Below are positions 24,816 through 51,411 of a DNA stretch of 64,000 nucleotides, piece after piece; position 1 is the stretch's first letter; each line of letters starts with the position of its first letter. The position numbers and the translations under genes were made by a program. Source of the DNA: Gilvimarinus xylanilyticus (GTDB lineage Bacteria > Pseudomonadota > Gammaproteobacteria > Pseudomonadales > Cellvibrionaceae); the NCBI RefSeq assembly GCF_024195295.1, contig NZ_JAMFTH010000001.1, forward strand, positions 434,001 to 498,000, given 5' to 3'. The notes under the pieces were generated by a model. The model did no database searches and was not told where the DNA came from. It saw only the letters and a program-made list of their open reading frames with translations.

Positions 24816-24838
24816 ATTGGTAATACAGGTTGGTTGAC
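24816..24838 (+). promoter_or_regulatory. Candidate regulon operator 1 (gntR-1 upstream)
   Basis: ATTGGTAATACAGG followed by TTGGTTGAC: two (T)TGGT half-sites 13 bp apart. It matches the gntR-2 upstream site at 29088-29110 in 19 of 23 positions. On the minus strand it overlaps the spacer of a TACAAT -10 element that could serve gntR-1. Confidence 0.6.
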
Positions 24839-24870
24839 GGTGAAAAATCATTGGAGGTGAACGTATACTC

Positions 24871-24891
24871 AGGTATTCCTTTTGGTTGACA
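24871..24891 (+). promoter_or_regulatory. Candidate regulon operator/promoter 2
   Basis: AGGTATTCCTTTTGGTTGAC followed by A: GGT half-sites 12 bp apart, the second merging with a TTGACA -35 box. It closely resembles the minus-strand site at 51392-51411. It is one of three motif copies between gntR-1 and the dehydrogenase gene. Confidence 0.5.
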
Positions 24892-25435
24892 CTGTTTTAG
24901 CCCTAATTATGGACTCACGGGAATCTAAAGTGCCGGTTAACCTATTGATATCTATAGGGTAATTTCGGGGTCTTATATGGCCTTCGTTGGGTCCCGGTCC
25001 CAGGTTTGAGTATGAATCAAGTAATGGTTCAGCGTCACAGCTTTAAAGTTGTAATAATAATTGGTTGACACTTTTGTTGTACGGCTGCTAATCTTCGTTC
25101 AACCGTTGGTACTTGCCTAGTGGATGGCTGCGGCAGTGTATTTTCTAGCATTGATCTCGGCCGAAGCTCTCAGGGCTGCTCGTTAGATTTCATTTAGAAC
25201 CGGCAGTGTCAGCGTTTGTTTGGGTGTTAGGCATAATAAATAGAATGTTACGTGTTTAGTTCTTGGTTTATTTTCCTTATGTCCGACGCATGCCCTGCAG
25301 TTACCAGTCTTCGTGTCTGGGCGAAGAATCAATGCGTGTTATCTGTAGCCTATCGGTAGGGCTAGATTGTTGAATTTTTATGGTAAGTAGGCGCTGGTTT
25401 GCGCCAGGCGTTTAACAAATATTTAGGAGTCAGAT
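24892..25435. other. Intergenic leader region before the dehydrogenase
   Basis: Apart from the motif at 25047-25094, the region holds no convincing gene. A short stem (GGCGC/GCGCC) sits close to the ribosome site TTAGGAG at about 25421-25427. Confidence 0.5.
25047..25094 (+). promoter_or_regulatory. Candidate promoter of the dehydrogenase gene (regulon site 3)
   Basis: AGTTGTAATAATAATTGG runs into TTGACA (25065-25070); 18 bases later is TAATCT (25089-25094) as the -10 box. It differs from the PL6 promoter site by 3 of 23 positions. The gene begins about 340 bases downstream, leaving a long leader in which no terminator was found. Confidence 0.6.
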
Positions 25436-26314
25436 ATGACACAACCTGTCATCGGATTTATCGGCCTTGGCCTTATGGGCGGCAACATGGTCGAAAACCT
25501 ACAGAAAAAAGGTCATGAGCCTGTAGTAATGGATTTAAACCAAGAGGCCGTTGATGTGGTTTTGGCGCGCGGTGCAAAGCAAGCCAAAACGGCAAAAGAG
25601 TTGGCCGAGGCGAGTGACATTGTGATGTTGTGCCTTACCACCTCCGAGGTGGTGGAAAAACTGGTTTATGGCGATGACGGTATTTTGGCCGGTATTAAAG
25701 AAGGTGCGGTGCTGGTCGATTTTGGCACTTCAATCCCGGCGTCTACTCGAAAAATTGGCGCTGATCTGGCCAAAAAAGGTGCGGGTATGGTCGATGCGCC
25801 TTTGGGGCGCACGCCTGCGCACGCCAAAGACGGTCTGCTCAACATCATGGCTTCGGGTGATAAGGAAACCTTTGAAAAGGTCAAGCCTGTGTTGGAGCAA
25901 CAGGGTGAAAACGTTTTCTACTTGGGTGACTTGGGTGCTGGCCACACGACTAAGTTGATTAATAACTTTATGGGGATGACCACAGTTTGTGCCATGTCTC
26001 AGGCTTTTGCCGTCGCCGATCGCGCGGGCGTTGATCGTCAGCAGTTGTACGATATTATGTCCACTGGCCCCTCTGCATCACCGTTTATGAACTTTTGTAA
26101 AAACTATGCCGTAGACGGTGTGAGTGATTTGGGCTTCTCTATTGCCAATGCCAATAAAGATCTTGGCTATTTCCTGGAAATGGTTAAAGACCTGGACACT
26201 AAAGCGCCTATTGCTGAGGGGACGTCAAGCGCTCTGCAGGCGGCCTTTGATGCCGGTATGGGCAATGGCAATGTTCCCGAGATATTCGATTACTACCTTA
26301 AGCTAGAAAAGTAG
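25436..26314 (+). CDS. Beta-hydroxyacid dehydrogenase (3-hydroxyisobutyrate dehydrogenase family), candidate DEH or semialdehyde reductase
   Basis: The protein has 292 residues. The N-terminal Rossmann motif GFIGLGLMGGNMVENLQKKG, the substrate region DAPLGRTPAHAKDG and the catalytic-lysine helix GAGHTTKLINNFM identify the 3-HIBADH/tartronate-semialdehyde-reductase family; the lysine in TKLINN is the expected catalytic residue. In alginate-degrading bacteria, family members reduce the lyase end product DEH to 2-keto-3-deoxygluconate, so a role in this pathway is likely, but tartronate semialdehyde reduction is equally compatible with the sequence. It lies between the two regulator genes, behind a regulon-type promoter, and ends at a strong terminator. 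A separate SDR at 34400 is a second candidate for the same step. Confidence 0.82.
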   Translation: MTQPVIGFIGLGLMGGNMVENLQKKGHEPVVMDLNQEAVDVVLARGAKQAKTAKELAEASDIVMLCLTTSEVVEKLVYGDDGILAGIKEGAVLVDFGTSIPASTRKIGADLAKKGAGMVDAPLGRTPAHAKDGLLNIMASGDKETFEKVKPVLEQQGENVFYLGDLGAGHTTKLINNFMGMTTVCAMSQAFAVADRAGVDRQQLYDIMSTGPSASPFMNFCKNYAVDGVSDLGFSIANANKDLGYFLEMVKDLDTKAPIAEGTSSALQAAFDAGMGNGNVPEIFDYYLKLEK

Positions 26315-26819: not shown

Positions 26820-28124
26820 TTATTTCTTCGCTTTCAATGGCTCGACTGTCGGAATAAGAATCCAAACGGCGGCCAGGGCAATCAGCGCTAGGGAGGCCCC
26901 GATCACAAATGCTGGGGTATAGTTTCCGCCCTGAGTTAACCAGGGAACGAAAATAGTCAGGCCCCAGGCTGAAAATTTGGCGGCCATGCCGGCAAACCCA
27001 GACAGCGACCCTACAGACTTCTGGCTCAGCATATCGGCTGGCAGGGTTTGTACGCTACTGATAGTGGTCTGAAAGCCAAACAAGATGATGCCCATAAGAA
27101 GTACGGCGGTAACCGGGCCACCGGGGTTGGCCATCGCCAGCAGGGCAGGCAACATTAACAGGCAACCCAGGGTAATCACAAACTTGCGGGTTTTGTTAAT
27201 GGTCCAACCCGCATTAATGCGGTTTTGCGATAAAAGCCCGCCAAACCAAGCGCCGAACATGGCGCCTACATAGGGAACCCAACCATAGAGTGCGATGCCT
27301 TTAACATCCATATTGTAAACTTCGGCAAGGTAGGTCGGAATCCAGAAAACAAACAGCCACCAAATTGGGTCAATCGCCGCAGAGGCAATAATAACGCCCC
27401 AGCTTTGTTTGCGCGACAGCATTTCTTTGGTATTCGGAGCATACTCGGTTTCGACGTTATTATCGTCGGTAGCTGGGGTGGTTTTTTGACCCGTTAGAAT
27501 ATAATCGCGTTCTTCTTCGGTAATCCAAGGGTGCATCTTAGGTGGGCATTTAACCAGAATCAGCCAGGGGATTAACCAGAGCAGGCCGATTAAACCGACA
27601 ATGACAAAAATGGCTTGCCAGCTAAAATGAACGGCAAGATAAGCGATAATGGGAATAGAGACCAGTCCACCGATGGCGGCGCCAGAGTTAAAAATCCCCT
27701 GAGCCAGTGCACGCTCTTTGGAGGGGAACCACTCGGCATTACCCTTGGCGGCGCCGGGCCAGTTGCCGGCTTCAGCCACACCCAGCAAGCTGCGGAAAAT
27801 ACTTAAAGAGACAACCCCTTGCCCGAAAGCGTGCAGGGCAGTCGCAATAGACCAAACACCAATTGACAGAGCAAAACCGATACGGGTGCCGACCCAGTCG
27901 AAAATTTTACCGAAAATGGCTTGGCCCAATGCGTAGGCGAGAATGAAAAAGCCGGAAATTGTGCCGTAAATCGCTTTTCGACCGTCGGCGTCCAGTTCTG
28001 GGTACAGGTCTTCACCCATGCTTGTCGCCCACAATACGTTCATGGTCTGGCGATCGATATAGTTAATGATGGTCGCTAAGGCAATTAGGGCAATTACCCA
28101 CCATCTTAAGTTTTTCACTTTCAT
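26820..28124 (-). CDS. MFS transporter, anion:cation symporter family (hexuronate type)
   Basis: The protein has 434 residues and about 12 membrane segments. It starts with MKVKNLRWWVIALIALATII and NYIDRQTMNVL, contains the loop motif GKIFDWVGTRIGFALSIGVW and RSLLGVAEAGNWPGAAKGNA, all characteristic of the ACS family that includes ExuT and other sugar-acid importers of the inner membrane. In this setting it probably imports unsaturated uronate monomer or short oligomers released from alginate (inference). A CTTAGGGAG ribosome site precedes the ATG. gntR-2 lies 105 bases upstream on the same strand, so the two may share a transcript. Confidence 0.85.
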   Translation of the reverse strand: MKVKNLRWWVIALIALATIINYIDRQTMNVLWATSMGEDLYPELDADGRKAIYGTISGFFILAYALGQAIFGKIFDWVGTRIGFALSIGVWSIATALHAFGQGVVSLSIFRSLLGVAEAGNWPGAAKGNAEWFPSKERALAQGIFNSGAAIGGLVSIPIIAYLAVHFSWQAIFVIVGLIGLLWLIPWLILVKCPPKMHPWITEEERDYILTGQKTTPATDDNNVETEYAPNTKEMLSRKQSWGVIIASAAIDPIWWLFVFWIPTYLAEVYNMDVKGIALYGWVPYVGAMFGAWFGGLLSQNRINAGWTINKTRKFVITLGCLLMLPALLAMANPGGPVTAVLLMGIILFGFQTTISSVQTLPADMLSQKSVGSLSGFAGMAAKFSAWGLTIFVPWLTQGGNYTPAFVIGASLALIALAAVWILIPTVEPLKAKK

Positions 28125-28229: not shown

Positions 28230-29018
28230 TTAGATTGATTCGGGTTTAGAGGTATATTGGATTCTGCTTAGCGAGAACCTCTCTCGCCGTTCATTGAGTT
28301 GTCGACGAACCTCCTCTACCGCACGTTCTTCTGTGGTTGTATGCAGTGCGTCCAGTGAGCGCGAAAAGTGGTTTCGCATAGCAACACGTGCGGCATGGCA
28401 GTCTCGATCTTTAAGGGTGTTTAAAATTGCCCGGTGTTCTTCAATTCTTTTTGAACCATCCGTGCGGCAAACTGATTGGTGTGCCGTTTTAATCTCGGGC
28501 AAATTGGCCTGTATATCCCACAGATGCTGAATAACGTTGATCAGTGGGCGGTTTTGAGTTGAGTGCGCAATAACAGAGTGAAATTTTCGATCGGCGACTT
28601 CGGATGTCAGGTTGCCGCTGTCGTTTTCCTCAATCATTTCTTTGAGCGCGCCTTCAAGCTCTGTAAGTTCTGCTTCAGTCATAGTTGAGGCGGCCAGTGC
28701 GGCAGCTTCAGACTCTATCAGTACCCGCGCTTCTGTAATTTCAAAGGGGCTGTACTCCCGTGGGTTGTCGCTTTTGGTCTGAAAGGATTTGAGTGCGTAG
28801 ACGCCGGATCCTGTTTGCACCTCGACCCGTCCCATCACCTCTAGGGCGATGATGGCTTCGCGAATCGTAGGTCGGCTTACGCCGTAGCGTTCAGATAGCT
28901 CACGCTCAGGCGGCAGCCTGGCGCCCGCTGGAAACTGTCCCGAATCCAAAGCCTTTAGCATTTTTTGGGCAACCCTGCGGTAGGTGCGCTGGTTTTTTTT
29001 GCCGCTGGCTGTGCTCAT
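28230..29018 (-). CDS. FadR-subfamily GntR transcriptional regulator (copy 2)
   Basis: The protein has 262 residues, aligning without gaps to copy 1 over almost its full length; the winged-helix core PERELSERYGVSRPTIREAI is identical. Differences cluster in the N-terminal dozen residues, the linker after the HTH, and the C-terminal tail (extra KPESI). The same recognition helix implies the same operators, while FCD differences could change ligand response. It is followed by the MFS gene on the minus strand and is divergent from the PL6 operon. The upstream motif at 29088-29110 lies about 70 bases from its start. Confidence 0.87.
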   Translation of the reverse strand: MSTASGKKNQRTYRRVAQKMLKALDSGQFPAGARLPPERELSERYGVSRPTIREAIIALEVMGRVEVQTGSGVYALKSFQTKSDNPREYSPFEITEARVLIESEAAALAASTMTEAELTELEGALKEMIEENDSGNLTSEVADRKFHSVIAHSTQNRPLINVIQHLWDIQANLPEIKTAHQSVCRTDGSKRIEEHRAILNTLKDRDCHAARVAMRNHFSRSLDALHTTTEERAVEEVRRQLNERRERFSLSRIQYTSKPESI

Positions 29019-29087: not shown

Positions 29088-29110
29088 ATTGGTAATACAT
29101 ATTGGTCAAC
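29088..29110. promoter_or_regulatory. Candidate regulon operator 4 (gntR-2 upstream)
   Basis: ATTGGTAATACATATTGG then TCAAC, nearly the same as the site upstream of gntR-1. On the minus strand it contains TTGACC, a plausible -35 box for gntR-2. Confidence 0.6.
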
Positions 29111-29277: not shown

Positions 29278-29325
29278 ATTGGTAATAATAAGTGGTTGAC
29301 ATGATTGTTGGGCGGTTGGTAGTCT
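29278..29325 (+). promoter_or_regulatory. Candidate promoter of the PL6 operon (regulon site 5)
   Basis: ATTGGTAATAATAAGTGG runs into TTGACA (29296-29301); the -10 box TAGTCT follows at 29320-29325 after 18 bases. The predicted start is near 29332, about 200 bases before the PL6 coding sequence. ACCAGATTGGT near 29330 is a further partial palindrome around the start site. Confidence 0.65.
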
Positions 29326-29486
29326 CTTAACCAGATTGGTCGACTGAGTCGGTGACGGTTGCTTCTCGTTTTGGCAGGAGATGGCGCGCCGGACATCCCC
29401 GCTTCGTCGCCGAAGCCAAGCAAGCTCGAGCACTGGTCCCTGTCAGAAATTGGCGATGCGCTGTTTCTGGCATGTGGCTCTCCTTG

Positions 29487-29523: not shown

Positions 29524-29547
29524 AAGTGAAAGTGTGGTGTGTTTAAT

Positions 29548-31758
29548 ATGAATAATAAGTCTCCATTGCGTTCTAGTCTTTTCGTTCTCGCCCTGTTTCC
29601 TGCACTGTGTGCGGCTAAAGATTACTCTGTTTCCGATTTTTCCGAATACCAAAACGCTGTCGATCAGCTAGAGCCTGGCGATCGGGTTTTATTACAAGAT
29701 GGCGTGTGGAGCGATGTTGAATTCGTTTTCTCTGCTAGGGGCACCGCCGAGGAGCCTATTACCTTAGCGGCAGAAAACCCTGGAAAAGCGATCATAAGCG
29801 GTCGCTCCAACTTAAAGCTTGCCGGTGAGCATTTGGTGGTTCGCGGATTGGTGTTTAAGAACGGTTACACCCCGTCTGACACTGTTATTTCCTTTCGCAC
29901 CGCAAAGCCGAAGAGCGAGGAAGACTACTCGACGATTGCGATGAATACTCGGTTGACTGAAGTTGTTATTGATGATTTTAGCAACCCCGATCGGTATGAG
30001 ACTGATTATTGGGTAAGTGTTTATGGCAAGAACAATCGTATTGACCATAACCATTTCAGCTTTAAGCGCAATAAAGGCGTAACCATGGCAGTGCGGCTTG
30101 ATACCGAGCACAGTCGAGAAAATAACCATGTGATCGAATACAACTATTTTGGTCCGCGCCCGGTATTGGGGTCGAATGGCGGTGAGACTCTGCGTATTGG
30201 TACCAGTCATTTCTCTCTAAGCGACTCGCTCACAACCGTTGCACACAACTATTTTGAGCACTGCGATGGTGAAGTGGAAATTATATCCAATAAGTCGGGG
30301 AATAATGTCTTGAAAAATAATGTGTTTTTCGAGTCGCGCGGCACCCTAACGTTACGCCACGGCAATGGAAACTTAGTAGAAGGTAATGCGTTCATTGGTA
30401 ATGGGGTTGATCATACAGGCGGCATTCGTGTGATTAACGCCGATCAAATCGTAAGAAATAACTATATGTCTGGGCTTACAGGATCACGCTTTGGTGGTGG
30501 GTTGGTGGTTATGAACGGGGTGCCGAATTCGCCCATCAATCGCTACCATCAAGTCGATAATGCGCTTATAACAGGCAATACTTTGGTTAACGTCGACAGA
30601 ATTATCTTCGGTGCCGGTAGCGACGAAGAGCGAAGCGCTGCTCCTTCTAATAGCCGTTTTGAGAACAACACCATCGTTAATGACTCAGGCGAGTCACCCT
30701 TTGAGCTTCATGACAGTGTAAAAGGGATAGAATTTGATGGGAACAAAGCGAATTTTTCAGTCGCTAAAGAACTGAAGGAAGGGTTTACCAAAGTCGATAA
30801 CTTGGATGTTTCTGTACCCGAGCTGCCCGTTGAGAAAGATGAAGTCGGCGTTTCCTGGTACCCCAAATATGAAAAAACTGACCGCTTTAGTCGCAAAAAT
30901 AGCGTTAAGGTCGCGCCAGGCGCGGATACGGTTTTGGACGTTTACAGTGGTCTTGAGGACGCTGCCGAGCTAGTGCTTGATGAGGGGCACTATCATTTCT
31001 CCAAAACATTGATTCTAGATAAGCCGCTGGTTATCAAGGGTGCGGGAAAGGGGAAAACGACGTTAACGTTTGCTCGTAAATCCTTGGTGGATCTTATGAA
31101 TGGAAGTTCGCTTCGCCTTCAAGATCTGACGGTCAGCGGTGCACGCGCACCGGATGATAAGGCCAATGCCGTGATTCGTTCAGACAGCTCACCTATGACC
31201 AAAAACTTTCAGTTAGAACTTTTAGGTGTTGAAGTACAAGATCTAGATATCAATAAGGACTTTGACGTCATTAAGCTTCGCAAGAGCACCTTTGCTGATG
31301 AGGTTCTGATTAAAGATTCAAGCTTTAATAATATTAAAGGATCTGTACTTAAACTGGACTCGGAAAAAGACGATTATGGTATGTATAACGCCGAATACAT
31401 TACCGTTAAAAACTCTACAGTGAGTAATGCCACTGGCGGTTTGATGACGGTGTATCGCGGCGGCACCGATGAAAGTACATTTGGTCCTCACGTGCATGTT
31501 GCCGGTGTGACTATCGAGTCCTCTCCTGCAGCGGATTCAAGCGGGCATAGCATTTTATTGCATGGTGTTCAGCGCGGTCTTATTGAGAGTAATCATTTTG
31601 TAAATAGCGCGCCTGTCTTGATTCAGCATACGGTAGGCGGGCCGGTCATTCGCATTGAATCTAATACTTACAGCAATAAACCTTTATACAAGGTCGAAAG
31701 CGTGGTGTCGGGAATGGAGTCCACCTTCAGTGCTGATAATAATAATTTTTCTGAGTAA
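29548..31758 (+). CDS. Polysaccharide lyase family 6 alginate lyase
   Basis: The product has 736 residues from ATG 29548 (GTG at 29539 is possible; the ribosome site is weak for both). A signal peptide (MNNKSPLRSSLFVLALFPAL) predicts export. The mature protein is a right-handed parallel beta-helix of the chondroitinase-B type, with repeated N-rich turns such as NHVIEYNYFGPRP and NNVLKNNVF. The PL6 catalytic lysine and arginine fit K249 (NKSGNN) and R270 (RHGNGN), 21 residues apart as in characterised PL6 enzymes. A second helix-rich half (from about 450) makes it a two-domain PL6. It cleaves alginate by beta-elimination and is the first gene of the operon running to 40070. Confidence 0.9.
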   Translation: MNNKSPLRSSLFVLALFPALCAAKDYSVSDFSEYQNAVDQLEPGDRVLLQDGVWSDVEFVFSARGTAEEPITLAAENPGKAIISGRSNLKLAGEHLVVRGLVFKNGYTPSDTVISFRTAKPKSEEDYSTIAMNTRLTEVVIDDFSNPDRYETDYWVSVYGKNNRIDHNHFSFKRNKGVTMAVRLDTEHSRENNHVIEYNYFGPRPVLGSNGGETLRIGTSHFSLSDSLTTVAHNYFEHCDGEVEIISNKSGNNVLKNNVFFESRGTLTLRHGNGNLVEGNAFIGNGVDHTGGIRVINADQIVRNNYMSGLTGSRFGGGLVVMNGVPNSPINRYHQVDNALITGNTLVNVDRIIFGAGSDEERSAAPSNSRFENNTIVNDSGESPFELHDSVKGIEFDGNKANFSVAKELKEGFTKVDNLDVSVPELPVEKDEVGVSWYPKYEKTDRFSRKNSVKVAPGADTVLDVYSGLEDAAELVLDEGHYHFSKTLILDKPLVIKGAGKGKTTLTFARKSLVDLMNGSSLRLQDLTVSGARAPDDKANAVIRSDSSPMTKNFQLELLGVEVQDLDINKDFDVIKLRKSTFADEVLIKDSSFNNIKGSVLKLDSEKDDYGMYNAEYITVKNSTVSNATGGLMTVYRGGTDESTFGPHVHVAGVTIESSPAADSSGHSILLHGVQRGLIESNHFVNSAPVLIQHTVGGPVIRIESNTYSNKPLYKVESVVSGMESTFSADNNNFSE

Positions 31759-31764
31759 GCGATT

Positions 31765-33921
31765 ATGAGATTGATGCCCTTGATGACCAAAGCCTTCAGT
31801 ATTCTCTTGCTGCTTTTAGGTGTGGCTTCTGCGGCGGCCGCCTCTCCCTCGTTGGTACTTAACGAAGATGATATTGGCGCCTTGCGTGAGGCGTCGGGTG
31901 GTTTGCTCGAAACCTCGTTGCAAGCCAATAAAATCGTGGCTGATGAGGCGATCGCCGCCGGAATAGTCGTTCCCTGGCCCAAAGATGCTGGTGGTGGGTA
32001 TACCCATGAACAGCATAAGCGTAACTACAAGGCAATGTACGCTGCGGCTCTGCAGTATCAGATAAGCGGAGATACCCGCTACAGCCACTATGTGGCCGAG
32101 ATGCTTAGTGCGTACGCGGATATGTACCCACAGTTAGATTTGCATCCCGAGAAAAAAGAGCAAACCCCGGGAAAGCTCTTTTGGCAGAGTCTTAATGAGG
32201 CTGTGTGGTTGGTTTACACCAGCCAAGCTTACGATATGGTGGCAGAGACCTTTAGCGATGAGCTAAGGGATCGGTTAAAAAATAATCTCCTCTTTCCGGT
32301 GGCCGACTACTTATCGAAAGGCCAGCCTCAGACCTTTGATAAAATTCATAACCACGGTACTTGGGCTGTTGCCGCCGTTGGTATGGTGGGCTACGCGACA
32401 GGTCGAGACGATTATGTGGAGCAGGCTCTTAAAGGCTTGGATAGGCGCGGAAACTCTGGCTTTTATAAACAGCTGGACGAATTGTTTTCGCCCGATGGTT
32501 ATTACACCGAAGGGCCCTATTACCAGCGCTATGCGCTTATGCCGTTCGTATGGTTTGCCAAAGCTATTGAAACGAATGAACCGGATAAAGCCATTTTCAA
32601 GTATCGCGACGGTATTTTGCTTAAAGCCATCTACACCACGTTAGAGCTGAGCTACAACGGTTTATTCTTACCCATTAATGATGCCATTAAAGACAAAGGT
32701 ATTAAGACCGAAGAGTTGGTTCAGGCACTTGCCATTGCTTACGATATTACTGCGGACAAATCCCTGAGCGATATTGCTCGTCAGCAAGAGAGGGTAAGCT
32801 TAAGTGCAGGCGGAGTAGCGCTTTCGAAAATCATTGCCGAGGGGGAGGTGGTTCCCTATAACTACCCGTCAAAAGTCTATCGCGATGGTGCCGATGGCGA
32901 ACAGGGAGCATTGACGCTATTGCGTTCGGGAGATAATGAATCCGGAACCTTGGTGGTGGCGAAGAATACCAGTCAAGGAATGGGGCACGGCCACTATGAC
33001 CGTCTTAGCTGGCAATTCTATGATGATGGCCACGAAGTGGTCACCGATTATGGTGCTGCTCGTTATCTTAATGTCGAGGCAAAATACGGCGGTCATTATT
33101 TAACCGAGAACAAGACCTGGGCCAAGCAAACAGTTGCTCACAATACTTTGGTGGTCGACAAGGCCAGTCAGTTTGATACGGATCTAGATAAGGCCAATAA
33201 GAATCCTGCCGAACAGGTGGCTTTCATTCAAGATAATGTGGCTGATATTAGTATAGGCCGTATCAATACCGCTTATGAAGGCGTTCAACTTACTCGCATC
33301 CAGGCATTGGTTAAGCCGAAGTCGATAGAGCCGTTTGTTATCGATGTGGTGAGTATCGAATCTGACACGCAGCATTTATATGACTTGCCACTGCATTTTA
33401 ATGGACAAGTTATAGATCATAACCTAGAAAATTCCGAGTCTTTCAATATTTGGAAGCCTTTGGGAAAGAGTAATGGGTATCAACATATGCTGCTGCGCAG
33501 TGAAGGCAATAGCGCAACAACCAATAACCGTCTCACATGGTTAATGGGTGACCGGTTTTACTCTTATACCTATGGTTACCAGGCCGAAAGTGCAAAACAG
33601 GCGAACACCTTGTTCTTCCAGTTGGGGGCGAACGACCCTAATCATAACCTGCGTAGGGATCAAGGGGTGGTTAGACGCCTTAAAGCCGATAGCGCTGTTA
33701 TGTACGCGGTGCTTGAACCCCATGGTGAATACAATGGCACCGCCGAGTATGTACGAAACTCTTATAGCCGGGTTAATTCCTTAGATTATAAACCTACAAA
33801 AACAGGCGCTGAGTTAACTGTAGATATGGGGCAGGGGCTAACCTACACTCTAATTTTAACTAAAGGTGACGAAAATTCGTCTCTGGTTAAAGCAAAAGTT
33901 ATCGAATTATCAGAAAACTGA
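31765..33921 (+). CDS. Polysaccharide lyase family 17 oligoalginate lyase
   Basis: The protein has 718 residues. It shows exolytic oligoalginate lyase architecture: a signal peptide (to about residue 26), an (alpha/alpha) toroid domain, then a C-terminal heparinase II/III-like beta-sandwich beginning near TLLRSGDNESGTLVVAKN. The residues equivalent to those of Saccharophagus Alg17C are visible: Asn196-His197 in IHNHGTW and Tyr253 in YYTEGPYYQRY, with the same 56-residue His-Tyr spacing. It releases unsaturated monomer (DEH) from alginate oligomers, probably in the periplasm. The start lies 6 bases after the PL6 stop, so the two are probably translated together. Confidence 0.93.
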   Translation: MRLMPLMTKAFSILLLLLGVASAAAASPSLVLNEDDIGALREASGGLLETSLQANKIVADEAIAAGIVVPWPKDAGGGYTHEQHKRNYKAMYAAALQYQISGDTRYSHYVAEMLSAYADMYPQLDLHPEKKEQTPGKLFWQSLNEAVWLVYTSQAYDMVAETFSDELRDRLKNNLLFPVADYLSKGQPQTFDKIHNHGTWAVAAVGMVGYATGRDDYVEQALKGLDRRGNSGFYKQLDELFSPDGYYTEGPYYQRYALMPFVWFAKAIETNEPDKAIFKYRDGILLKAIYTTLELSYNGLFLPINDAIKDKGIKTEELVQALAIAYDITADKSLSDIARQQERVSLSAGGVALSKIIAEGEVVPYNYPSKVYRDGADGEQGALTLLRSGDNESGTLVVAKNTSQGMGHGHYDRLSWQFYDDGHEVVTDYGAARYLNVEAKYGGHYLTENKTWAKQTVAHNTLVVDKASQFDTDLDKANKNPAEQVAFIQDNVADISIGRINTAYEGVQLTRIQALVKPKSIEPFVIDVVSIESDTQHLYDLPLHFNGQVIDHNLENSESFNIWKPLGKSNGYQHMLLRSEGNSATTNNRLTWLMGDRFYSYTYGYQAESAKQANTLFFQLGANDPNHNLRRDQGVVRRLKADSAVMYAVLEPHGEYNGTAEYVRNSYSRVNSLDYKPTKTGAELTVDMGQGLTYTLILTKGDENSSLVKAKVIELSEN

Positions 33922-33988
33922 TACTTATTAATATTGACAGGGATGCATCATAAGTTTCCTTTATCCGTGATTGTTATAGGTGAAGATT

Positions 33989-34336
33989 ATGTTAATTGAA
34001 TCTAGCAAGTTTATTGAGATGGATACCATCGAAGAAGAAGATGTAGCCCCCGGCGTAAAGCGTCGCATTATGGGTTATAACGAACAAATTATGGTGGTTC
34101 GCGTAACTTTTGAAGAGGGAAGTGAGGGTTATGTGCATAGCCATTTTCACTCTCAGGTCGCTTATGTCGAGCGCGGTAAGTTTGAGGTTATGATCGACGG
34201 CGAGAAGAAAATCCTTAAAGGTGGTGACTGTTTTTACGTTCCGCCTAATGAAGAGCACGGCGCTGTTTGCCTTGAAGCGGGGATTTTGATTGATATTTTC
34301 AGTCCTATTCGAGCCGATATGGTCGGTGGAAAATAA
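33989..34336 (+). CDS. kdgF: KdgF-like cupin, unsaturated uronate linearisation
   Basis: The product has 115 residues from ATG 33989, with AGGTGA 5 bases before it (a GTG at 33980 lies inside the ribosome site). A single cupin barrel shows the metal ligands HSHFHSQ with a later His in PPNEEHGA. KdgF converts 4,5-unsaturated uronate monomers to the linear keto form (DEH or DKI) in pectin and alginate catabolism, following the lyases directly upstream. It has no signal peptide, so it acts in the cytosol. It lies 67 bases after PL17, in the same operon. Confidence 0.9.
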   Translation: MLIESSKFIEMDTIEEEDVAPGVKRRIMGYNEQIMVVRVTFEEGSEGYVHSHFHSQVAYVERGKFEVMIDGEKKILKGGDCFYVPPNEEHGAVCLEAGILIDIFSPIRADMVGGK

Positions 34337-34399
34337 GCAAGTCTCTCGTTAATCGGCATTTTGTAGAAAATGCATGCTAAATCCTTAGGTGGGTGTTTT

Positions 34400-35152: not shown

Positions 35153-35166
35153 ATTATAGATAAGCA

Positions 35167-35190
35167 AGGCCTGCATTCCATGGCAGGCCT
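35167..35190 (+). other. Intra-operon stem-loop before kdgK
   Basis: AGGCCTGC and GCAGGCCT form an 8-bp perfect stem with an ATTCCATG loop, 24 bases before the kdgK GTG and without a T-run. Possible RNA-stabilising or processing element. Confidence 0.5.
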
Positions 35191-35213
35191 ATTCTCTACA
35201 ATAGAGGTATTTT

Positions 35214-36143: not shown

Positions 36144-36185
36144 GCGCAGATACGAATTCTTCTCAACATTAAAAGAGAGTTATCC

Positions 36186-40150: not shown

Positions 40151-40286
40151 GCCAGACGCTGTTTTCTCCCTAGGGGCAGGGTAAACCTTCGCCTCCCTCT
40201 CTCTAAGCTTGGCCGATTTCTTTTTACGCCTGCTGTAAGCATATGATTTTATTGCTTAAATTGTAAGGCTCTTGAAGGTTTAAATA

Positions 40287-40344: not shown

Positions 40345-40800
40345 TTACTCAACGATTGAATATCTGTCCCAGAATAATCATAAGCACGGGGGTAAAGAAT
40401 TGAACCGAAACGGTGAAACCGGATTGCTGAAGCCATTGCCGTTAATAGGGGCGGCAGGGTGGATGCATGTTGGGCGTCCGCGTCTAGTTGTAGCCACTGA
40501 GTATGTGGTCCTCTCCGATGGGTTAGCGAGAATGGTTAACCGAGTTTACGGGCTTCGCTAGAAGCCCGCTTTTTCCCACATGCCCCAGTCTGTTTTTTCG
40601 TTCGGACCCGAGGGCTGGTTTGAAGTCGGAGCTTCTAGGTCGCGCAGAAAGACGACTACTAAGGTTTCAACCGATCTGCCTCAGACGGTGCTGATGTTAA
40701 TTTATGGATAAGTCGAGAGGCCAGCGAGGCGCAAGAAGTTACCTAACCAATGAGTTTATTGAGTATCAAATCGTTAACTAACAATAAGGATACAGTCACT
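40345..40800 (+). other. Leader region of the lipoprotein gene
   Basis: About 450 bases lie between the promoter and the coding start. A terminator at 40549-40574 splits it. The first part would be a 224-nt RNA; the second (40575-40800) shows no clear element. The word TGGTTAACCG occurs at 40533-40542, next to the terminator. Confidence 0.5.
40549..40574 (+). terminator. Intrinsic terminator inside the lipoprotein leader
   Basis: A perfect 8-bp stem CGGGCTTC/GAAGCCCG, tetraloop GCTA, then C and five T. It precedes the coding start by about 225 bases. Confidence 0.85.
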
Positions 40801-42759: not shown

Positions 42760-42773
42760 TAATTGGTTAACCG
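42760..42773. promoter_or_regulatory. Shared palindromic word TAATTGGTTAACCG, copy 1
   Basis: The 14-mer contains the perfect palindrome GGTTAACC. The same 14-mer is at 51627-51640, and the 10-mer TGGTTAACCG is also at 40533-40542. All three lie beside genes of the alginate locus. Confidence 0.5.
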
Positions 42774-42943
42774 CAAAGTCGTTTATGTGTGACCGTTATG
42801 GTTATTCTGAAAATATCTAATTGGGGTGATTTCGTTATCTAGCCACGGGTTTGGGTAGAAGTGTAACGCTCAATTTATGTATTTATATGTTTATAAGCTA
42901 TTGAATATTAAGTGAAATTTTATTTTGTGTGTCGGCATTAAAA

Positions 42944-43001
42944 TCGGTAATAATTAATGTATTCAAAGTGGTTGACAAAAATGTAGTGCATTGGTTAATG
43001 T
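42944..43001 (+). promoter_or_regulatory. Candidate promoter of the TBDR gene (regulon site 7)
   Basis: TCGGTAATAATTAATG, then a second TGGT 24 bp later (GGT to GGT), running into TTGACA (42972-42977); 18 bases on is TAATGT (42996-43001). It shares 19 consecutive bases with site 6. The predicted transcript begins about 50 bases before the start codon. Confidence 0.68.
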
Positions 43002-43056
43002 TCGCTATGACAATCGAGGTTGTTCTACCAATAAACATAATTAAGGAGTACGAGAA

Positions 43057-46014
43057 GTGAGCGACATAAACAAAATTAATTTGCCCAAAGCGGTAGCAGC
43101 TATTAGCAGCGCTATGGTTACCGCATCAGCTTTGGCGTTCAGCCAGGGTGCTCTTGCTCAAGAGCAAGAAACATCACCTATGTTGGAAGAGGTTGTTGTA
43201 ACTGGTATTCGTGCCAGCTTGCAGGCCGCTGTCGATGTGAAGCGTGACAGCGTGCAAATCTCTGACGCGATTGTGGCTGAAGATATCGGTAAGCTGCCCG
43301 ACAACAATATCGCCGAAGCTCTGCAGCGCATTACCGGGGTTTCCATTGTCCGCGATTTTGGTGTTGGTACCTCTGTTTCAATTCGTGGTCTTCCTCAGAA
43401 CCGTATTGAATTAAATGGCCGGTCTACCATTGGCGATGGTCGTGGTGGTGTGAGTCTGGAAGATTTTCCTTCCAGCTTCCTTAAGCAAGTAGAGGTGATC
43501 AAGTCACCCACTGCCGATATGATCGAGGGCGCTTTGGGTGGCACCGTTAGAATGGAAACCCGCAGCCCGCTGGAGCTGGATGGCCCGACCATCGCCGGCT
43601 ATCTGGCCGGTGAGTACACCGACAAAACCGAAAACTGGGGTCCGATTTTTAACGCGACTGCTGGCGACAATTGGGACTTGGGCGAAGCTGGTACCATCGG
43701 TGCCGTAGCGATGTTCTCTTACCAGGATCGCGAGCTGCGTCGCGATAGTTACTTTAACCGTGTTCAAGCTTTGGCAAAGTCTGACGCGGGCGATGGTTCA
43801 AACCCTGAAGATGCCATTCCGTTTGATGCCAACACGCCCAGCGGACGCTATATCGTGCGTGATCAGAACACCGTTGAGCAGTATGTCGAAGAACGTGAGC
43901 GTACCGCCTCATTCGTATCTGTTGAGTGGGCTCCAGCCTCAGAAGATGGCCATATATTCCTCGAATACAACACCACTAGCCGTGGCGGATACCAAGGTGG
44001 TAACTCCATTCTGGACGTAGGCGGTACCCGTGAGTACGATGCCAATACCGTTCAAGATGCTAACGGCCAAGTCGATAATTACACTCTGCCGGGCGTGTTC
44101 CAGATTCCTAAAACCTGGAGTGAGTTCCGCGAGACGGATACCGAAACGATCGCTTTTGGCGCCGATTGGGATCTGACCGATAAGCTGAACGTATTTGCTG
44201 AATATGTAGATGCCTCGTCGGAAAGTTCTGCACCGGATAACGAATTCAACTTGCGTCCTGTGCGTCGCGCCGACTTTGAAGCAGACGGCAGTATTAACAT
44301 GCAAACGGCCGATGCTGAATTTGACGGCACCAACGGTGGAATTCCCTCTATTGTCTACAGCGATCCTAACCTGTTGACCAACCCCAATAACTTGGCGCTG
44401 CGCGAATTCGAGGCTGAACTTAACGACACCACCAACGATGAGACTGCTTTCCGTATCGACGTTGATTATCGCGAGCCCTTCGGTATCGGCTGGATTAGCT
44501 CTGTTGAGGCGGGCTATCGCCAAACCGAGCGTGACTACTCCTTCCGTCGTGCCAAGTTTGAGCAGGCAGATGTTCACTCAGACACTTACTATCTGGATGA
44601 AAATGGCAACCCGACTGACGAGCAAGCCGTATTCTGGATTAACGATTACGAAGCAATGTTTCCCGGCAGTATCACCACGGTTAACTATGACAACTCGTTC
44701 GATCAAACCGGCTTAGCTGGGCAAAATGATCTGCTGACTTATCGTGTGTTTGATCCAATGCAGCTCCATAACATCGACGATGTGTTCTTGGATTGGCAGC
44801 AGCTCTATCAGGGTACCACGCTCGAAACTAGCGGTACTTTGAGTGACAACATGACCGACGATTTGGGGGCTTACCGGGATATCACGGAAGAAACCAGCGC
44901 TCTGTACGCCATGGCCAATTTGGACTTTGGTGCCGTTCGTGCCAATGTTGGTGTGCGCTATGTAGAGAGTGAAATTTCCTCTTCAGATGCAGACGGAGAT
45001 TCCGGCTCTAACGACTATGACGATGTTCTGCCCAGCGCTAACATTACCTACAGCGTGACTGACAACACCTTGGTTCGCTTTGCGGCAGCTAAAGTAATGC
45101 GTCGTGCAGGTTTTGAGCAGCTGGCGCCTTCAGCGGGTGTGGACGATAGTTACGTAACGGCGGAGCGTGGTGCTATCGATTTGGATCCGTTCCGTGCTAC
45201 CCAGTACGACCTGTCGGTAGAGCACTACTTTGGTGATACCAACATGATCTCGGCGGCCATCTTCTACAAAGATGTTTCGTCGTTCTTCACCACCTCAAGC
45301 AGCTGTGTGGCTGACTCGCGCACCCAGAGCGCTCCGCAGAACGTTACCGAGTACGGCAATGTTTGTTTGCTGAATTCAGCGGGCCAGAATAACCCAACAC
45401 TTGAGTATGTAGATTCGGCCAACTTTGCCAATGAGGCCGAGGGTATCGCCTATGTGGAAGGTTTGCGAGACCAGGGTCTAACCGGTATCCGGACTTACGC
45501 TCAAGAAAATGGCGACAGTGGTTTTGTGAAAGGTCTTGAATTGGGTTACCAGCAGATCTTTGATTTCTTGCCCGGTATGCTGTCCGGTCTGGGTATGAAT
45601 GCAAACTACACCTATGCCGACAGTGAAACCCCTGACGGTTCGCAAATGCTGAATATTTCTGAGCATACCATTAATACTCAGGTGTTCTGGGAGTATGAGG
45701 ATGTGTCGGTTCGCTTTGCTTACAACTGGCGCGATGACTTCCTGTTCAGCGAGCAAGAAAAACGCGTCGAGAATATTGGTGCACTAGCGACTAACAGTTC
45801 TCAGGATGATCCTACCGCCGGTAATAACTACACCGAAGCGCGTGGTCAGCTGGATTTCTCGGTTAGCTACGACATTAACGACAACATCAGTCTTGTGGGT
45901 AATGCCACTAACCTGACCGGTGAAAACACCGTTTTCATTACCGAGCTGGGTAGCCCTTGGCAGTACTATGAGTCGGATCGTCGCTACAGCGTAGGTGTTC
46001 GTGCGAAGTTCTAA
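43057..46014 (+). CDS. TonB-dependent receptor, predicted alginate oligosaccharide importer
   Basis: The product has 985 residues from a GTG (43057) with TAAGGAG 8 bases before it. A signal peptide (to about residue 35, GALAQEQ) leads to a TonB box-like LEEVVVTGIRASLQAA, then a plug domain (SDAIVAEDIGKLPDNNIAEA and SIRGLPQNRIELNGR) and a 22-strand barrel ending in VRAKF. The plug style is typical of the carbohydrate-type TBDRs of Cellvibrionales and Alteromonadales. Location among alginate lyases and the regulon-type promoter suggest transport of alginate oligosaccharides across the outer membrane; energy comes from TonB-ExbBD, not encoded here. Confidence 0.9.
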   Translation: MSDINKINLPKAVAAISSAMVTASALAFSQGALAQEQETSPMLEEVVVTGIRASLQAAVDVKRDSVQISDAIVAEDIGKLPDNNIAEALQRITGVSIVRDFGVGTSVSIRGLPQNRIELNGRSTIGDGRGGVSLEDFPSSFLKQVEVIKSPTADMIEGALGGTVRMETRSPLELDGPTIAGYLAGEYTDKTENWGPIFNATAGDNWDLGEAGTIGAVAMFSYQDRELRRDSYFNRVQALAKSDAGDGSNPEDAIPFDANTPSGRYIVRDQNTVEQYVEERERTASFVSVEWAPASEDGHIFLEYNTTSRGGYQGGNSILDVGGTREYDANTVQDANGQVDNYTLPGVFQIPKTWSEFRETDTETIAFGADWDLTDKLNVFAEYVDASSESSAPDNEFNLRPVRRADFEADGSINMQTADAEFDGTNGGIPSIVYSDPNLLTNPNNLALREFEAELNDTTNDETAFRIDVDYREPFGIGWISSVEAGYRQTERDYSFRRAKFEQADVHSDTYYLDENGNPTDEQAVFWINDYEAMFPGSITTVNYDNSFDQTGLAGQNDLLTYRVFDPMQLHNIDDVFLDWQQLYQGTTLETSGTLSDNMTDDLGAYRDITEETSALYAMANLDFGAVRANVGVRYVESEISSSDADGDSGSNDYDDVLPSANITYSVTDNTLVRFAAAKVMRRAGFEQLAPSAGVDDSYVTAERGAIDLDPFRATQYDLSVEHYFGDTNMISAAIFYKDVSSFFTTSSSCVADSRTQSAPQNVTEYGNVCLLNSAGQNNPTLEYVDSANFANEAEGIAYVEGLRDQGLTGIRTYAQENGDSGFVKGLELGYQQIFDFLPGMLSGLGMNANYTYADSETPDGSQMLNISEHTINTQVFWEYEDVSVRFAYNWRDDFLFSEQEKRVENIGALATNSSQDDPTAGNNYTEARGQLDFSVSYDINDNISLVGNATNLTGENTVFITELGSPWQYYESDRRYSVGVRAKF

Positions 46015-48257: not shown

Positions 48258-51200
48258 CTAGAAAAACTTCACTTTGGCGCCCAGGAAGATACGCGGACCG
48301 TAGCTGTTTAGCTCGCCCAGATAATCCCGGGTGTAGTGGTATTGACGCTTAGGCTCATCAAATAAGTTAATGGCTTTCAGGTCCAGACGAATATTGTCGG
48401 TGACATATTGAGAGACTTTGGCTTCCCAAACTCCGGTGTCACCCACAAAGCGCAGGCGGGTGCCATTGCTTGTGTAAGGCTGAAAGTATTCGCTGCGGTA
48501 CTTGTAGATTAAGCTGGCATCAAAGTCGCCTACCGAGTAATACAGCTGGCCCGAGAATACGTGCTCCGAGAAGCCCGGAACATTGCCTGGCTCTACGATT
48601 CCCTCGGTCTGGTACACGACATTGCCTTCATCGTCTCGTACCGTCAGGTCACCATAGTTACTGTCTTCAAACTCAAAGTCAGAATCGGCGTAGTTATAGC
48701 TTGCTTTAACCCCGAAGCCACTCAAGAAGCCCGGCAGGTAGGAGAAATTGTGGGTGGCCGTAATCTCAATACCGGTCAGGGCGCTGGTGTCGTCATTGGT
48801 TTCGGTCAGATCGAAGTCCGCGGGAATAGTCTGGCCGTCAATCAAGAACTCTTCGGTGGTGCGGGTTGTCTCAAAGCCGCCTTGGAAGTTCTTGTGGTAC
48901 AGGCCGAACGCCAGCAGGGTGTCCTGGTTGGGATACCATTCGATAGCTGCATCAAAGCTCCAGGAGGTAAGTGGCTGCAAGTTCGGGTTACCGTCGCCGC
49001 TCACATTCTGAATCAGTTCATCCAGCTCGGTAATGTCTTCTTCGCTGCTTACGGTAAACCCACGCTGATAGCTCATGTCGGCGGGCTCTGGACGAGACAG
49101 GCCGCGATATACGGCGCCGCGAAGCATCAAGTCGTCGGTTAAGTCCATAATTACGTTGATGCTGGGTAGAACTTCGGTGTAGTCGCCACCACCCACAACA
49201 CGTTCGAAATCTGCCCCTTCAACGGGTACCAGAGACAGAATGCCATCGTCTGATGTGGCAATGGTGTAGGGCGTGCGATAGCCAATCGATTCCACTTCGG
49301 TTTGTACGACACGAACACCAAAGTTACCGCGAACTGTTTTGCTAAATAGGCTGCTGTCAAAATCAGCCATCAGGTAAGCGGCGTTGGTGGTTTCAGTTAC
49401 GTCGGTAGTGTTGGCCTTAGACTCGGGCATTTCGGGGAAGTCGGTAGACTCGCCTTCGAAATCGGCCAACATACTAACGGCACAGGCCGTGTCAAAAGTT
49501 GCCCAGCTGTTGGTTTGTTTAACCACATTGCCTTCGTCGTCAAGCATAGTGAACAGGGCGCCGTCGCGCTCAGCTCCCATAAAGTCGCTTTCGGGGAACT
49601 CAATAGCACAACTATCTTTCACTTGCGACAGGAATTGATACTCTCCCACGGTCACTTCAAACTCATTACGAACGGTGGGGCCGGCATCCAGATATTCCAG
49701 CTCGGAGGCGCGGAAACCACCTTTAATGGCGGTAATGGTGCCGTCCAGACGCCAGTCGAAGTCGGCGCGGAAAGCTTCAATAGTGTTGGTGCGATCTACG
49801 TCACTGTCAATTCTGGCGCGCCAGCGATCAGAGAAAAGATTGTGGTCGGTAATATCAAACCCGGTAATTTCATACTGACGAATACCTGAGTCGGTGTCCC
49901 ATTGAACCATCGGGCGGTAGGTAGATACGTTCTCGCCGTTCAGGTCGTAGTCGTCGGACTGGGTGCGCAGCAGCATTTGGTTTTCAATGCGCGTGGTTTC
50001 AGAGAATGAGTAATCGGCTGAAACGGTTAAGTCGGGCGTAATGTCGTAGGCTATATTCAGACCATAGCCGGTGTAGTCTTCGTCGCGACGATACAGCTCG
50101 CTGTTGGACTCGATGGCGCTTTCACCTTCCCAGTTTAAAATAGCGCCGCCATCGGTAACCACCAGTGCCTCAGGTGTTACCCCCGGAGTGGTTCGCTTTT
50201 GGTTGGCAAAATTCAGGTCGTGGCGTTTCTCGGCTTGGATCCGCTCTGATTGCTGATAGTCGATATTGATGTCGGTTTTGTCGTTGGGCTGGAATTGCAG
50301 CGCGGCAAAAAAGGCTTCGCGTTCGTCAGATGTGTCATTTTGACGGTAGCTGTTCGAGCTGGGGGCAAACGCGTAATCTTTGCCGGCGTCATAGGCTTCA
50401 CCGGTCTCGGGATTGATTTCGGTGTTGTAGTCGCCCGAGTTAGAGGGGCCCTCCAGAGGGTCTTCACAGTCGCCAGCCACAGGCATGTAGTAACCGCGGT
50501 CGGTCACACTGGGATCGTTAATACAAGCGAACAGCGAGGTGCCGCTGGGGCTTGAGGCGCGCATTTCAGATTCCGGCTGAGAAATGTCGCTTTGTTCGTA
50601 GCCCAAAGAAATACCCACTGCCATACCATTGTCGAAGTCAAACTGATCGACATAGCTGGCGCTACCTTTAAACCCAATATCGCCCGACATGGAGTCTTCC
50701 AGGTTTTGTTGGTTGGGTTGATAGCCAATGCTTCCGTCTAATTGTAAGCGGCGCTTGTCGTAGTCCAGAGGTCTTAAGGTCTCAAGGGCAATCAAGCCCG
50801 CTACACCGCCTTCAATTAAGCTGGCATCTTGGGTTTTGTATATGGCGAGTTCGTTAATCAGCTCTGAGGGAAATTGCGAAAAGTTAACCGAACGGTCACC
50901 GCTGCCGTTACTGGCGTTACGGCCGTTGAAGGTGGTTGCGCTCAGGTACGGCCCCAGGCCGCGAATCGAGATTTCGGTGGCGCCGCCGTTTTCACGGTGC
51001 GAGGAGGCACCGGTAATGTTTTCCAAAGCTTCACCAATAGACAGTGCTGGCAAGTCGCCGATGTCGTTGGCTGACATGCCGTCGACAATAGTGGTGGAGT
51101 TGCGCTTAATGTCAATGGTGGTTTGGATGGTGGCACGAGTACCTTGAACGATGACCTCTTCCAGTGCCATAGACTGGCTGGCGCTATCTTGCTCTTGCTG

Positions 51201-51311
51201 AGCAAAAGCTAAGTTAGCACATGAAGCAGTGGCGATCGCGCTGACCAGAAGCGACTGTTTAAAGCCAGTTTTCTTGGTTTTTTTGATAGCGAGATTATTG
51301 TTATTTCGCAT
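48258..51311 (-). CDS. TonB-dependent receptor, second carbohydrate-type receptor of the locus
   Basis: The product has 1,017 residues from the ATG at 51311, chosen because GGAGGAAC stands directly before it. An open frame reaches 51419 but would run through the promoter motif at 51392-51411. The N-terminus MRNNNNLAIKKTKKTGFKQS is followed by a signal segment ending AFAQQ. The TonB-box region (MALEEVIVQGTRATIQTTID), plug (DIGDLPALSIGEALENITGA and SIRGLGPYLSATTFNGR) and C-terminal barrel strand (FLGAKVKFF) are intact. The type is that of Cellvibrio/Xanthomonas-like sugar receptors. Its motif-bearing promoter argues for membership in the alginate regulon; the substrate itself is inferred. Confidence 0.88.
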   Translation of the reverse strand: MRNNNNLAIKKTKKTGFKQSLLVSAIATASCANLAFAQQEQDSASQSMALEEVIVQGTRATIQTTIDIKRNSTTIVDGMSANDIGDLPALSIGEALENITGASSHRENGGATEISIRGLGPYLSATTFNGRNASNGSGDRSVNFSQFPSELINELAIYKTQDASLIEGGVAGLIALETLRPLDYDKRRLQLDGSIGYQPNQQNLEDSMSGDIGFKGSASYVDQFDFDNGMAVGISLGYEQSDISQPESEMRASSPSGTSLFACINDPSVTDRGYYMPVAGDCEDPLEGPSNSGDYNTEINPETGEAYDAGKDYAFAPSSNSYRQNDTSDEREAFFAALQFQPNDKTDINIDYQQSERIQAEKRHDLNFANQKRTTPGVTPEALVVTDGGAILNWEGESAIESNSELYRRDEDYTGYGLNIAYDITPDLTVSADYSFSETTRIENQMLLRTQSDDYDLNGENVSTYRPMVQWDTDSGIRQYEITGFDITDHNLFSDRWRARIDSDVDRTNTIEAFRADFDWRLDGTITAIKGGFRASELEYLDAGPTVRNEFEVTVGEYQFLSQVKDSCAIEFPESDFMGAERDGALFTMLDDEGNVVKQTNSWATFDTACAVSMLADFEGESTDFPEMPESKANTTDVTETTNAAYLMADFDSSLFSKTVRGNFGVRVVQTEVESIGYRTPYTIATSDDGILSLVPVEGADFERVVGGGDYTEVLPSINVIMDLTDDLMLRGAVYRGLSRPEPADMSYQRGFTVSSEEDITELDELIQNVSGDGNPNLQPLTSWSFDAAIEWYPNQDTLLAFGLYHKNFQGGFETTRTTEEFLIDGQTIPADFDLTETNDDTSALTGIEITATHNFSYLPGFLSGFGVKASYNYADSDFEFEDSNYGDLTVRDDEGNVVYQTEGIVEPGNVPGFSEHVFSGQLYYSVGDFDASLIYKYRSEYFQPYTSNGTRLRFVGDTGVWEAKVSQYVTDNIRLDLKAINLFDEPKRQYHYTRDYLGELNSYGPRIFLGAKVKFF

Positions 51312-51391
51312 TTGTTCCTCCAGGGCCGTTATTGTTGATATTGCTGTAAGCGCCTTTTGGCGCCCAATTCTAAGTAGTTGGCTGAACATAT

Positions 51392-51411
51392 TGTCTACCA
51401 AGTTGAATACC
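51392..51411 (-). promoter_or_regulatory. Candidate promoter/operator of the minus-strand TBDR (regulon site 8)
   Basis: Read on the minus strand: GGTATTCAACTTGGTAGACA, 16 of 20 positions identical to site 2 at 24872-24891, with half-sites 12 bp apart and TAGACA as -35 box. TAGAAT follows after 19 bases as a likely -10 box. Confidence 0.6.

Follow-up and report, generated by a model that had tools for sequence, protein, structure and literature searches.

Candidate FCD-type GntR operators at the promoters of an alginate-utilisation locus in Gilvimarinus xylanilyticus

Alginate from brown algae is a large marine carbon pool. This report concerns a recurring operator-promoter motif at the alginate locus of Gilvimarinus xylanilyticus, within a stretch of 64,000 nucleotides (contig NZ_JAMFTH010000001.1, positions 434,001 to 498,000) that is called the window here and numbered from its first letter. 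The locus encodes two GntR regulators with an FCD domain, GntR1 and GntR2, and the closest described systems are other regulators of this kind. As described for the FadR subfamily, binding sites consist of a TKGT and an ACMA box in which 3 or 2 bases separate GT from AC; weaker extra half-sites lie 7-12 nt from the palindrome centre (PMC4494728). NanR of Escherichia coli is described as binding with three dimers side by side on direct repeats (PMC8012715). Atu1419 of Agrobacterium fabrum is reported to be an FCD protein that, as a tetramer, joins two palindromes at a distance of 190 bp into a DNA loop, which was seen by electron microscopy (PMC7797058). The alginate locus of Vibrio sp. C42 contains several gntR genes, of which gntR1 and gntR2 rise on alginate (PMC13390454); the parts of that account available to us give no operator. 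The gene algR of Shewanella is named in a table of PMC2996990, and its binding site may be in the additional file of that paper. Among the papers listed in the literature searches, some of whose listings were capped, we found by titles and starts of abstracts no description of the operator of a GntR-controlled alginate locus, which is weak evidence of absence.

Similar to ExuR/UxuR-type FCD regulons, the Gilvimarinus locus shows GT-N2/3-AC dyads, TKGT/ACMA arms that are complete at part of the sites, weaker extra half-sites, double sites in divergons and uronate genes (PMC4494728). Unlike in those regulons, the right arm here is often broken and fused with the -35 hexamer. GntR1 and GntR2 belong to the FCD (FadR) subfamily, with PF00392 and PF07729 over the cut-off in both, and they are neither ExuR nor UxuR equivalogs in NCBIfam (124.7 and 126 bits vs a cut-off of 396 for ExuR; 110.9 and 114.3 bits vs 442 for UxuR). 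NanR is alike in being an FCD-type GntR repressor with tandem direct half-sites starting with GGT and several adjacent dimers; its operator is (GGTATA)3, whereas the half-sites here, TTGGTAATA and TGGTTGACA, recur irregularly in steps of 12-13 or 24-25 bp and form palindromes too, so that no NanR-type operator was found (PMC8012715). Atu1419 is likewise an FCD regulator with a palindrome pair at similar distance, and differs in its palindrome, ATGTATACAT, and in its targets, which are hydroxycinnamate genes (PMC7797058). Vibrio sp. C42 shares the presence of several gntR genes within the alginate locus, which may not be counterparts of GntR1 and GntR2 (PMC13390454).

A preliminary description, made from the letters of the window, had listed eight sites with two TGGT half-sites, the second running into a -35 box that is usually TTGACA. 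All eight strings were located at the positions listed. Below, E-values refer to the profiles R1 and R2 that are described after the list, TBDT1 and TBDT2 are TonB-dependent receptors, HIBADH stands for 3-hydroxyisobutyrate dehydrogenase, and PL for polysaccharide lyase.

24816-24839, plus strand: site 1, ATTGGTAATACAGGTTGGTTGACG, candidate operator over the GntR1 -35 box (TTACCA, minus reading); R2 E 2.8e-5 genome-wide; conserved island
24871-24891, plus strand: site 2, AGGTATTCCTTTTGGTTGACA, an additional and weaker site in the GntR1-HIBADH interval; R1 E within the window 0.043
25047-25095, plus strand: site 3, candidate operator of the gene for the HIBADH-type reductase (-35 TTGACA, -10 TAATCT); R1 E 8.6e-10 genome-wide; 7/7 genomes
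29088-29110, plus strand: site 4, ATTGGTAATACATATTGGTCAAC, candidate operator over the GntR2-MFS -35 box (TTACCA, minus reading; MFS, major facilitator superfamily transporter); R2 E 2.2e-4 genome-wide; conserved island
29278-29326, plus strand: site 5, candidate operator with -35 TTGACA and -10 TAGTCT before PL6 and the genes behind it; R1 E 2.0e-6 genome-wide; 7/7 genomes
40286-40345, plus strand: site 6, candidate operator (-35 TTGACA, -10 TAGCCT) before the gene of a 616-amino-acid (616-aa) protein; R1 E 1.5e-6 genome-wide; 6 genomes compared
42944-43002, plus strand: site 7, candidate proximal operator with -35 TTGACA and -10 TAATGT of TBDT1; R1 E 2.0e-6 genome-wide; 7 genomes compared
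51389-51411, minus strand: site 8, candidate proximal operator TTGGTAGACAA of TBDT2; TTGGT-NN-ACAA in 6/6 orthologous promoters

The second half-site runs into TTGACA in five of the eight sites (2, 3, 5, 6 and 7), while site 1 has TTGACG, site 8 TAGACA and site 4 TGGTCAAC. The first half-site is TGGT in five sites but AGGT in site 2, TTGT in site 3 and CGGT in site 7; that of site 8 starts one base outside the range first given for it. The -10 boxes placed 18 bases behind the -35 box in sites 3, 5, 6 and 7 were correct, and TAnnnT stands at this position in 27/27 promoters of these four classes from the window and its relatives. Every copy had been placed before a gene of the alginate locus. 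The description is to be corrected in that sites 1 and 4 most simply serve the GntR genes on the minus strand and that sites 2 and 8 are weaker.

The specificity of the motif was examined in the genome around the window (3.93 Mb, 13 contigs). The pattern GGTA-N6..21-TGGTTGACA gave 5 matches at 4 places (sites 2, 5, 6 and 7), all in the alginate locus, and 1 match with the reversed control. TGGTTGACA alone shows no excess (14 places genome-wide vs 27 for the reversed control), but 5/14 places lie within the 26.6 kb of the listed sites, a span equal to 0.7% of the genome in which 0.095 would be expected (binomial P = 2.7e-8). The pattern ATTGGTTRACM occurs 14 times (reversed control, 11); the four copies in the window lie outside open reading frames (ORFs) of at least 90 aa, and 9 of the other 10 lie inside such ORFs.

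Two profiles were built from relatives, with no site from the window. R1 comprises 20 promoter sites from six relatives (HIBADH 6, PL6 6, 616-aa class 5, TBDT1 3), leaving out TBDT2 and site-2-like sites, and three further TBDT1-type sites were found afterwards; R2 comprises 11 GntR-promoter sites. In each search, scores were given to the 150 best of the initial candidates (925 and 2192), and the E-values are rough, the calibration having been shortened. R1 found 25050, 29281, 40307 and 42960 in window coordinates (E from 8.6e-10 to 2.0e-6), and at E <= 1 a single other match in the genome, outside the alginate locus (G000:C9:244078, E 0.338). R2 found only 24816 and 29088 at E <= 1. Thus all six strong profile matches in the genome lie in the alginate locus, and equally good matches elsewhere, looked for genome-wide, were not seen. 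Neither profile gave site 2 or site 8 an E <= 1 in the genome as a whole; when the window alone was searched, R1 gave site 8 an E of 1.7. Among the other 24 genomes searched, E < 1e-3 was found only in the six Gilvimarinus genomes with these GntR proteins, where the matches are largely training sites, and in G038, a genome of another genus with an R1 match before PL6 and an R2 match before its GntR gene.

The sites are conserved in six relatives and in part also in other genera. Across seven genomes, little of the GntR1-HIBADH and GntR2-PL6 intergenic regions is alignable except the gene-adjacent ends and islands at the sites, namely ATTGGTAATAC..TTGGT by the regulator and GTAATAATAATTGGTTGACA plus the -10 box by the enzyme. 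On the regulator side two rows deviate: G002 has a poor second box before GntR1, and G005 is one base short before GntR2. The -35 core of site 8 is retained in 6/6 orthologous promoters. The half-site ACCAAT was found 66-142 bp before the GntR match start in 16/16 orthologues (50-84% identity; six from Gilvimarinus and ten from other genera), a set that covers ten genera including Gilvimarinus. About 0.14 occurrences per 170 bp are expected by chance, from the frequency in the same loci; the count is over 16 oriented loci, 13 GntR loci below 50% identity having been excluded.

At the proximal sites, GGT-NN-AC is present in 33/33. Most of the relatives' sites in four of the five classes were collected by exact GGTTGACA, so the uniform centre is partly a product of selection. 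The TBDT2 class is more telling because two of its six sites were placed by homology: it has TTGGT and ACAA in 6/6, the centre is TG in three and AG, CA and CG in one each, and the -35 hexamer varies with it. The full TKGT-NN-ACMA is present in 6/6 TBDT2 sites, 5/7 TBDT1 sites and 1/6 sites of the 616-aa class. Further GGT half-sites lie upstream, at -13 in HIBADH (6/7), PL6 (2/7) and other genera (5/8), at -24 in the 616-aa class (5/6), at -24 or -25 in TBDT1 (6/7) and at -12 in site-2-like sites (3/3). TTGACA would fit a double role as -35 hexamer and as right arm of GGT-NN-AC. On the minus strand, the first island holds, by eye, TTACCA followed after 16 bases by TAATAT (GntR1) or after 17 bases by TAGAGT (GntR2). 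Because the island provides this TTACCA with a spaced -10 box, sites 1 and 4 are read most simply as regulator-gene operators, which most likely govern GntR1, and GntR2 with the MFS gene behind it, on the minus strand.

A distal palindrome at TBDT1 is added here to the listed sites, and a similar element lies between TBDT2 and TBDT3, a third TonB-dependent receptor.

42763-42774, no strand: distal palindrome-like TTGGTTAACCGC, 8/10 arm letters, centre 201.5 bp upstream of the site 7 anchor
51630-51641, no strand: TTGGTTAACCGT, 8/10 arm letters, possible distal operator of TBDT2 (-236.5, spacing unlike the relatives) or operator of TBDT3

All seven TBDT1-type promoters, one per genome, have a TTGGTNNACCAA-like palindrome that agrees in 8 to 10 of the 10 arm letters and has its centre between -199.5 and -204.5; the threshold of 8/10 was picked after the palindromes had been seen. 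The set may not consist of strict orthologues, as the receptor gene lies beside GntR1 in G003 and G007 and on another contig in G004, and the promoter end and start codon region are common to all. Mean ungapped pairwise identity is 0.30 (0.23-0.43) from -185 to -35 and 0.70 over the proximal site. Over the distal segment it is just 0.33, since the position of the site varies by as much as 5 bp and the arms alone are kept. Among 2000 dinucleotide shuffles, no 6-bp bin contained more than 3/7 promoters, a number reached in 4 shuffles, compared with the observed 7/7. The relatives thus keep the sites and, at TBDT1-type promoters, a near-constant distance between paired sites, while the surrounding DNA has drifted. 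The TBDT2 promoters of relatives have palindromes with 10/10 arm letters at -188.5, -188.5, -196.5, -200.5 and -215.5. Two candidate operators about 190 bp apart, as in Atu1419, are found in the TBDT1-type set (7/7) and, more loosely spaced, in 5/6 TBDT2 promoters, and the near-fixed pairing at about 200 bp, with near-random sequence between, makes a repression loop plausible at the TonB-receptor promoters.

Taken together, the sites are probably operators through which FCD-type GntR repressors control an alginate-utilisation regulon, and the duplicated pair GntR1 and GntR2 is the most likely candidate. At structural genes, a dimer would bind around GGT-NN-AC, with the -35 hexamer as right side; RNA polymerase would be kept off because the bound dimer covers this hexamer. 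At most structural promoters, the second half-site 12-13 or 24-25 bp upstream could take another subunit or dimer. At the regulator genes, ATTGGTAATACANNTTGGT over their own minus-strand -35 box would give negative autoregulation, and the extra palindrome at a near-fixed distance of about 200 bp upstream of TonB-receptor promoters would allow a repression loop. An intermediate of alginate breakdown, which may be 2-keto-3-deoxygluconate (KDG), its 6-phosphate (KDPG) or 4-deoxy-L-erythro-5-hexoseulose uronate (DEH), would release the repressor. Binding by GntR1 and GntR2, repression, looping and the inducer are what we infer from the sites, whose letters, specificity, conservation and spacing can be read directly.

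Several results weigh against this reading or narrow it. The training promoters had been collected with the core motif of the preliminary description, and for this reason the profiles test specificity and are not an independent discovery. Only 12/33 proximal sites have the full TKGT-NN-ACMA, and none of the 14 HIBADH and PL6 sites does, the full right arm being missing. The TBDT2 promoters share no left box, and conservation of site 8 does not extend to its left half; site 2 was found in 3/7 genomes, and the PL7 gene at 46197 had no match in the profile scans of the window. Bare palindromes are not enriched by count in the own genome, where TTGGTNNNACCAA occurs at 9 places (control, 7) and TTGGTNNACCAA at 2 (control, 8), one of these 11 lying in the alginate locus, inside the TBDT1 gene (45230). 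In G002, G003, G005, G006 and G007 together, 7/21 places of TTGGTNNACCAA are in the alginate region, and the control has 33 places in all; the bare-palindrome counts cover seven genomes, with G004 left out. As for the loop, the TBDT2 spacing is loose (188.5-215.5 bp in 5/6, 236.5 bp in the window), and in the 616-aa class the only 8/10 palindrome in the neighbourhood of -200 is GC-rich and belongs to G002 (-212.5), others being at -20/-21. Lastly, the genome has two more FCD genes, in hexuronate-type loci whose genes mostly score below curated model cut-offs. The locus on C11 has galactarate-dehydratase-, galacturonidase- and TonB-receptor-like genes, and that on C7 has KDG-kinase-, fructuronate-reductase- and TRAP-like genes. 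Their FCD proteins are 43% and 35% identical to GntR1 and have the SRPTIREA recognition helix in common with GntR1 and GntR2, and TTGGTAATACC, which has its half-site in common with the alginate sites, adjoins both genes.

Owing to this common helix, the sites could be read wholly or partly by the two hexuronate-type regulators, or all four FCD proteins could form one uronate network. TTGGTAATACCAA or TTGGTAATACCAC near the hexuronate FCD genes is indeed a completed form of TTGGTAATACA of sites 1 and 4. We nevertheless regard this as unlikely, since R1 and R2 miss the hexuronate loci at E <= 1 and ACCAAT precedes every alginate-type GntR gene counted; moreover, G001, whose best FCD match has 46% identity, gave no match to either profile, although it is a weak control that may lack alginate genes. 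A different family of transcription factor, perhaps an activator for which the half-site array upstream of the -35 box would be equally suitable, is very unlikely, given that the GT-N2/3-AC geometry and the ACCAAT half-sites before GntR genes in ten genera point to GntR proteins and that the overlap with the -35 box suits a repressor. The recurring element could also be a strong sigma-70 promoter with some common upstream sequence and no dedicated regulator, as TTGACA and a TAnnnT spaced by 18 bp within the motif might suggest. This is hardly credible: no comparable profile match was found in the rest of the genome, the TBDT2 arms stay while the -35 box changes, and sites 1 and 4 lack TTGACA and overlap a promoter on the opposite strand. 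The first two of these points rule out a plain sigma-70 promoter as the full explanation. The preliminary description had named the two GntR proteins encoded here as candidates; a regulon under FCD-type GntR control is well supported by specificity, relatives, a partial to full consensus fit and the 16 ACCAAT half-sites, and GntR1 and GntR2 are its likely binders.

For the distal palindrome of the TonB receptors, a role outside any loop, either as a separate operator (e.g. of a second upstream promoter) or as a reservoir site, has a chance only a little short of even. It is favoured by the spread of TBDT2 spacings (188.5-236.5 bp) and by the lack of a common helical remainder among distances between GntR and enzyme operators, whereas the TBDT1-type spacing stays within 5 bp in 7/7 promoters despite the low identity between the sites. 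Helical phasing of the GntR and enzyme operators was tried on 12 hand-derived distances of about 166-248 bp and rejected, and looping is not claimed there. Returning to GntR1 and GntR2 as repressors, we consider it tentative, and somewhat unlikely, that four FCD regulators with near-identical helix and half-site are kept apart by operator architecture, with single palindromes at hexuronate genes and, at alginate genes, a broken palindrome fused to the -35 box, a tandem half-site and a distal loop site at TonB receptors, perhaps through GntR1/GntR2 hetero-tetramers.

For experiments on these marine degraders, the sites offer concrete candidate operators. With pairs of sites at a near-fixed 200 bp, DNA looping by FCD GntR proteins, of the kind reported with Atu1419, could be tested in another lineage, and the helix that alginate and hexuronate regulators have in common raises a clear question of specificity.

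Of the seven Gilvimarinus genomes checked, six have an exact TTGGTAATACCAA, in one orientation or the other, behind the galacturonate-type FCD gene (loci L138:8046-8058, i.e. G000:C11:74046-74058, L176-L179, L181 and L182); it was not at the place read in G006. In four of those genomes TTGGTAATACCAA forms the tip of a long hairpin that resembles a terminator, as though the same letters served as both operator and terminator.

The region 23969-53958 encodes the two GntR/FCD regulators, a HIBADH-type reductase, an MFS transporter, PL6, PL17, a cupin, a short-chain dehydrogenase/reductase (SDR), a KDG-kinase-like PfkB protein, a class II fructose-bisphosphate aldolase (FBA), a fructose-1,6-bisphosphatase (FBPase), two PL7 lyases, the 616-aa protein and three TonB-dependent receptors. 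The four closest relatives of PL6 among named contigs are from Gilvimarinus (79-85% identity).

23834-23844, plus strand: ATTGGTTGACC outside ORFs, role unassigned
23969-24745, minus strand: GntR1, GntR/FCD regulator (Pfam PF00392, PF07729)
25436-26314, plus strand: HIBADH-type reductase
26820-28124, minus strand: MFS transporter, on the strand of GntR2 and 105 bp behind it
28230-29018, minus strand: GntR2, GntR/FCD regulator (Pfam), about 80% identical to GntR1
29539-40070, plus strand: likely operon, judging by short gaps, of PL6, PL17, cupin, SDR, KdgK-like kinase, class II FBA, FBPase and PL7
40750-42600, plus strand: 616-aa protein carrying a VCBS-type domain, matched weakly by laminin-G
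43057-46014, plus strand: TBDT1, TonB-dependent receptor
48258-51419, minus strand: TBDT2, TonB-dependent receptor, true start below 51389 within the listed ORF

The class II FBA and a Firmicute-type FBPase (FBPase_2) lie at 36186-38942 inside the alginate lyase cluster, and they are kept there in 6/6 relatives compared. The conserved site is separated from the 616-aa gene by a second PL6-like gene in G005 and G006 (32-35% identity; L050:49-1149, L052:7018-8115). The segment 23477-23968 has no long ORF, resembles by eye a decayed coding sequence and contains the one ATTGGTTGACC listed above.

A regular 12-bp array (-24, -12, 0, +12, +24) was also considered. GGT is common at -24/-25, -13, 0 and +24, but +24 overlaps the extended -10 box and +12 is degenerate, and the array is left as an idea. 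In the spacer between the -35 and -10 boxes, G at +13 and +16 is present in 96% and 89% of 27 promoters, which a plain promoter does not explain. The leader of TBDT2 (51310-51372, minus strand) contains a conserved AATTGGGCGCCAA followed by GCGCTTA, with a GC-rich hairpin fold in the window.

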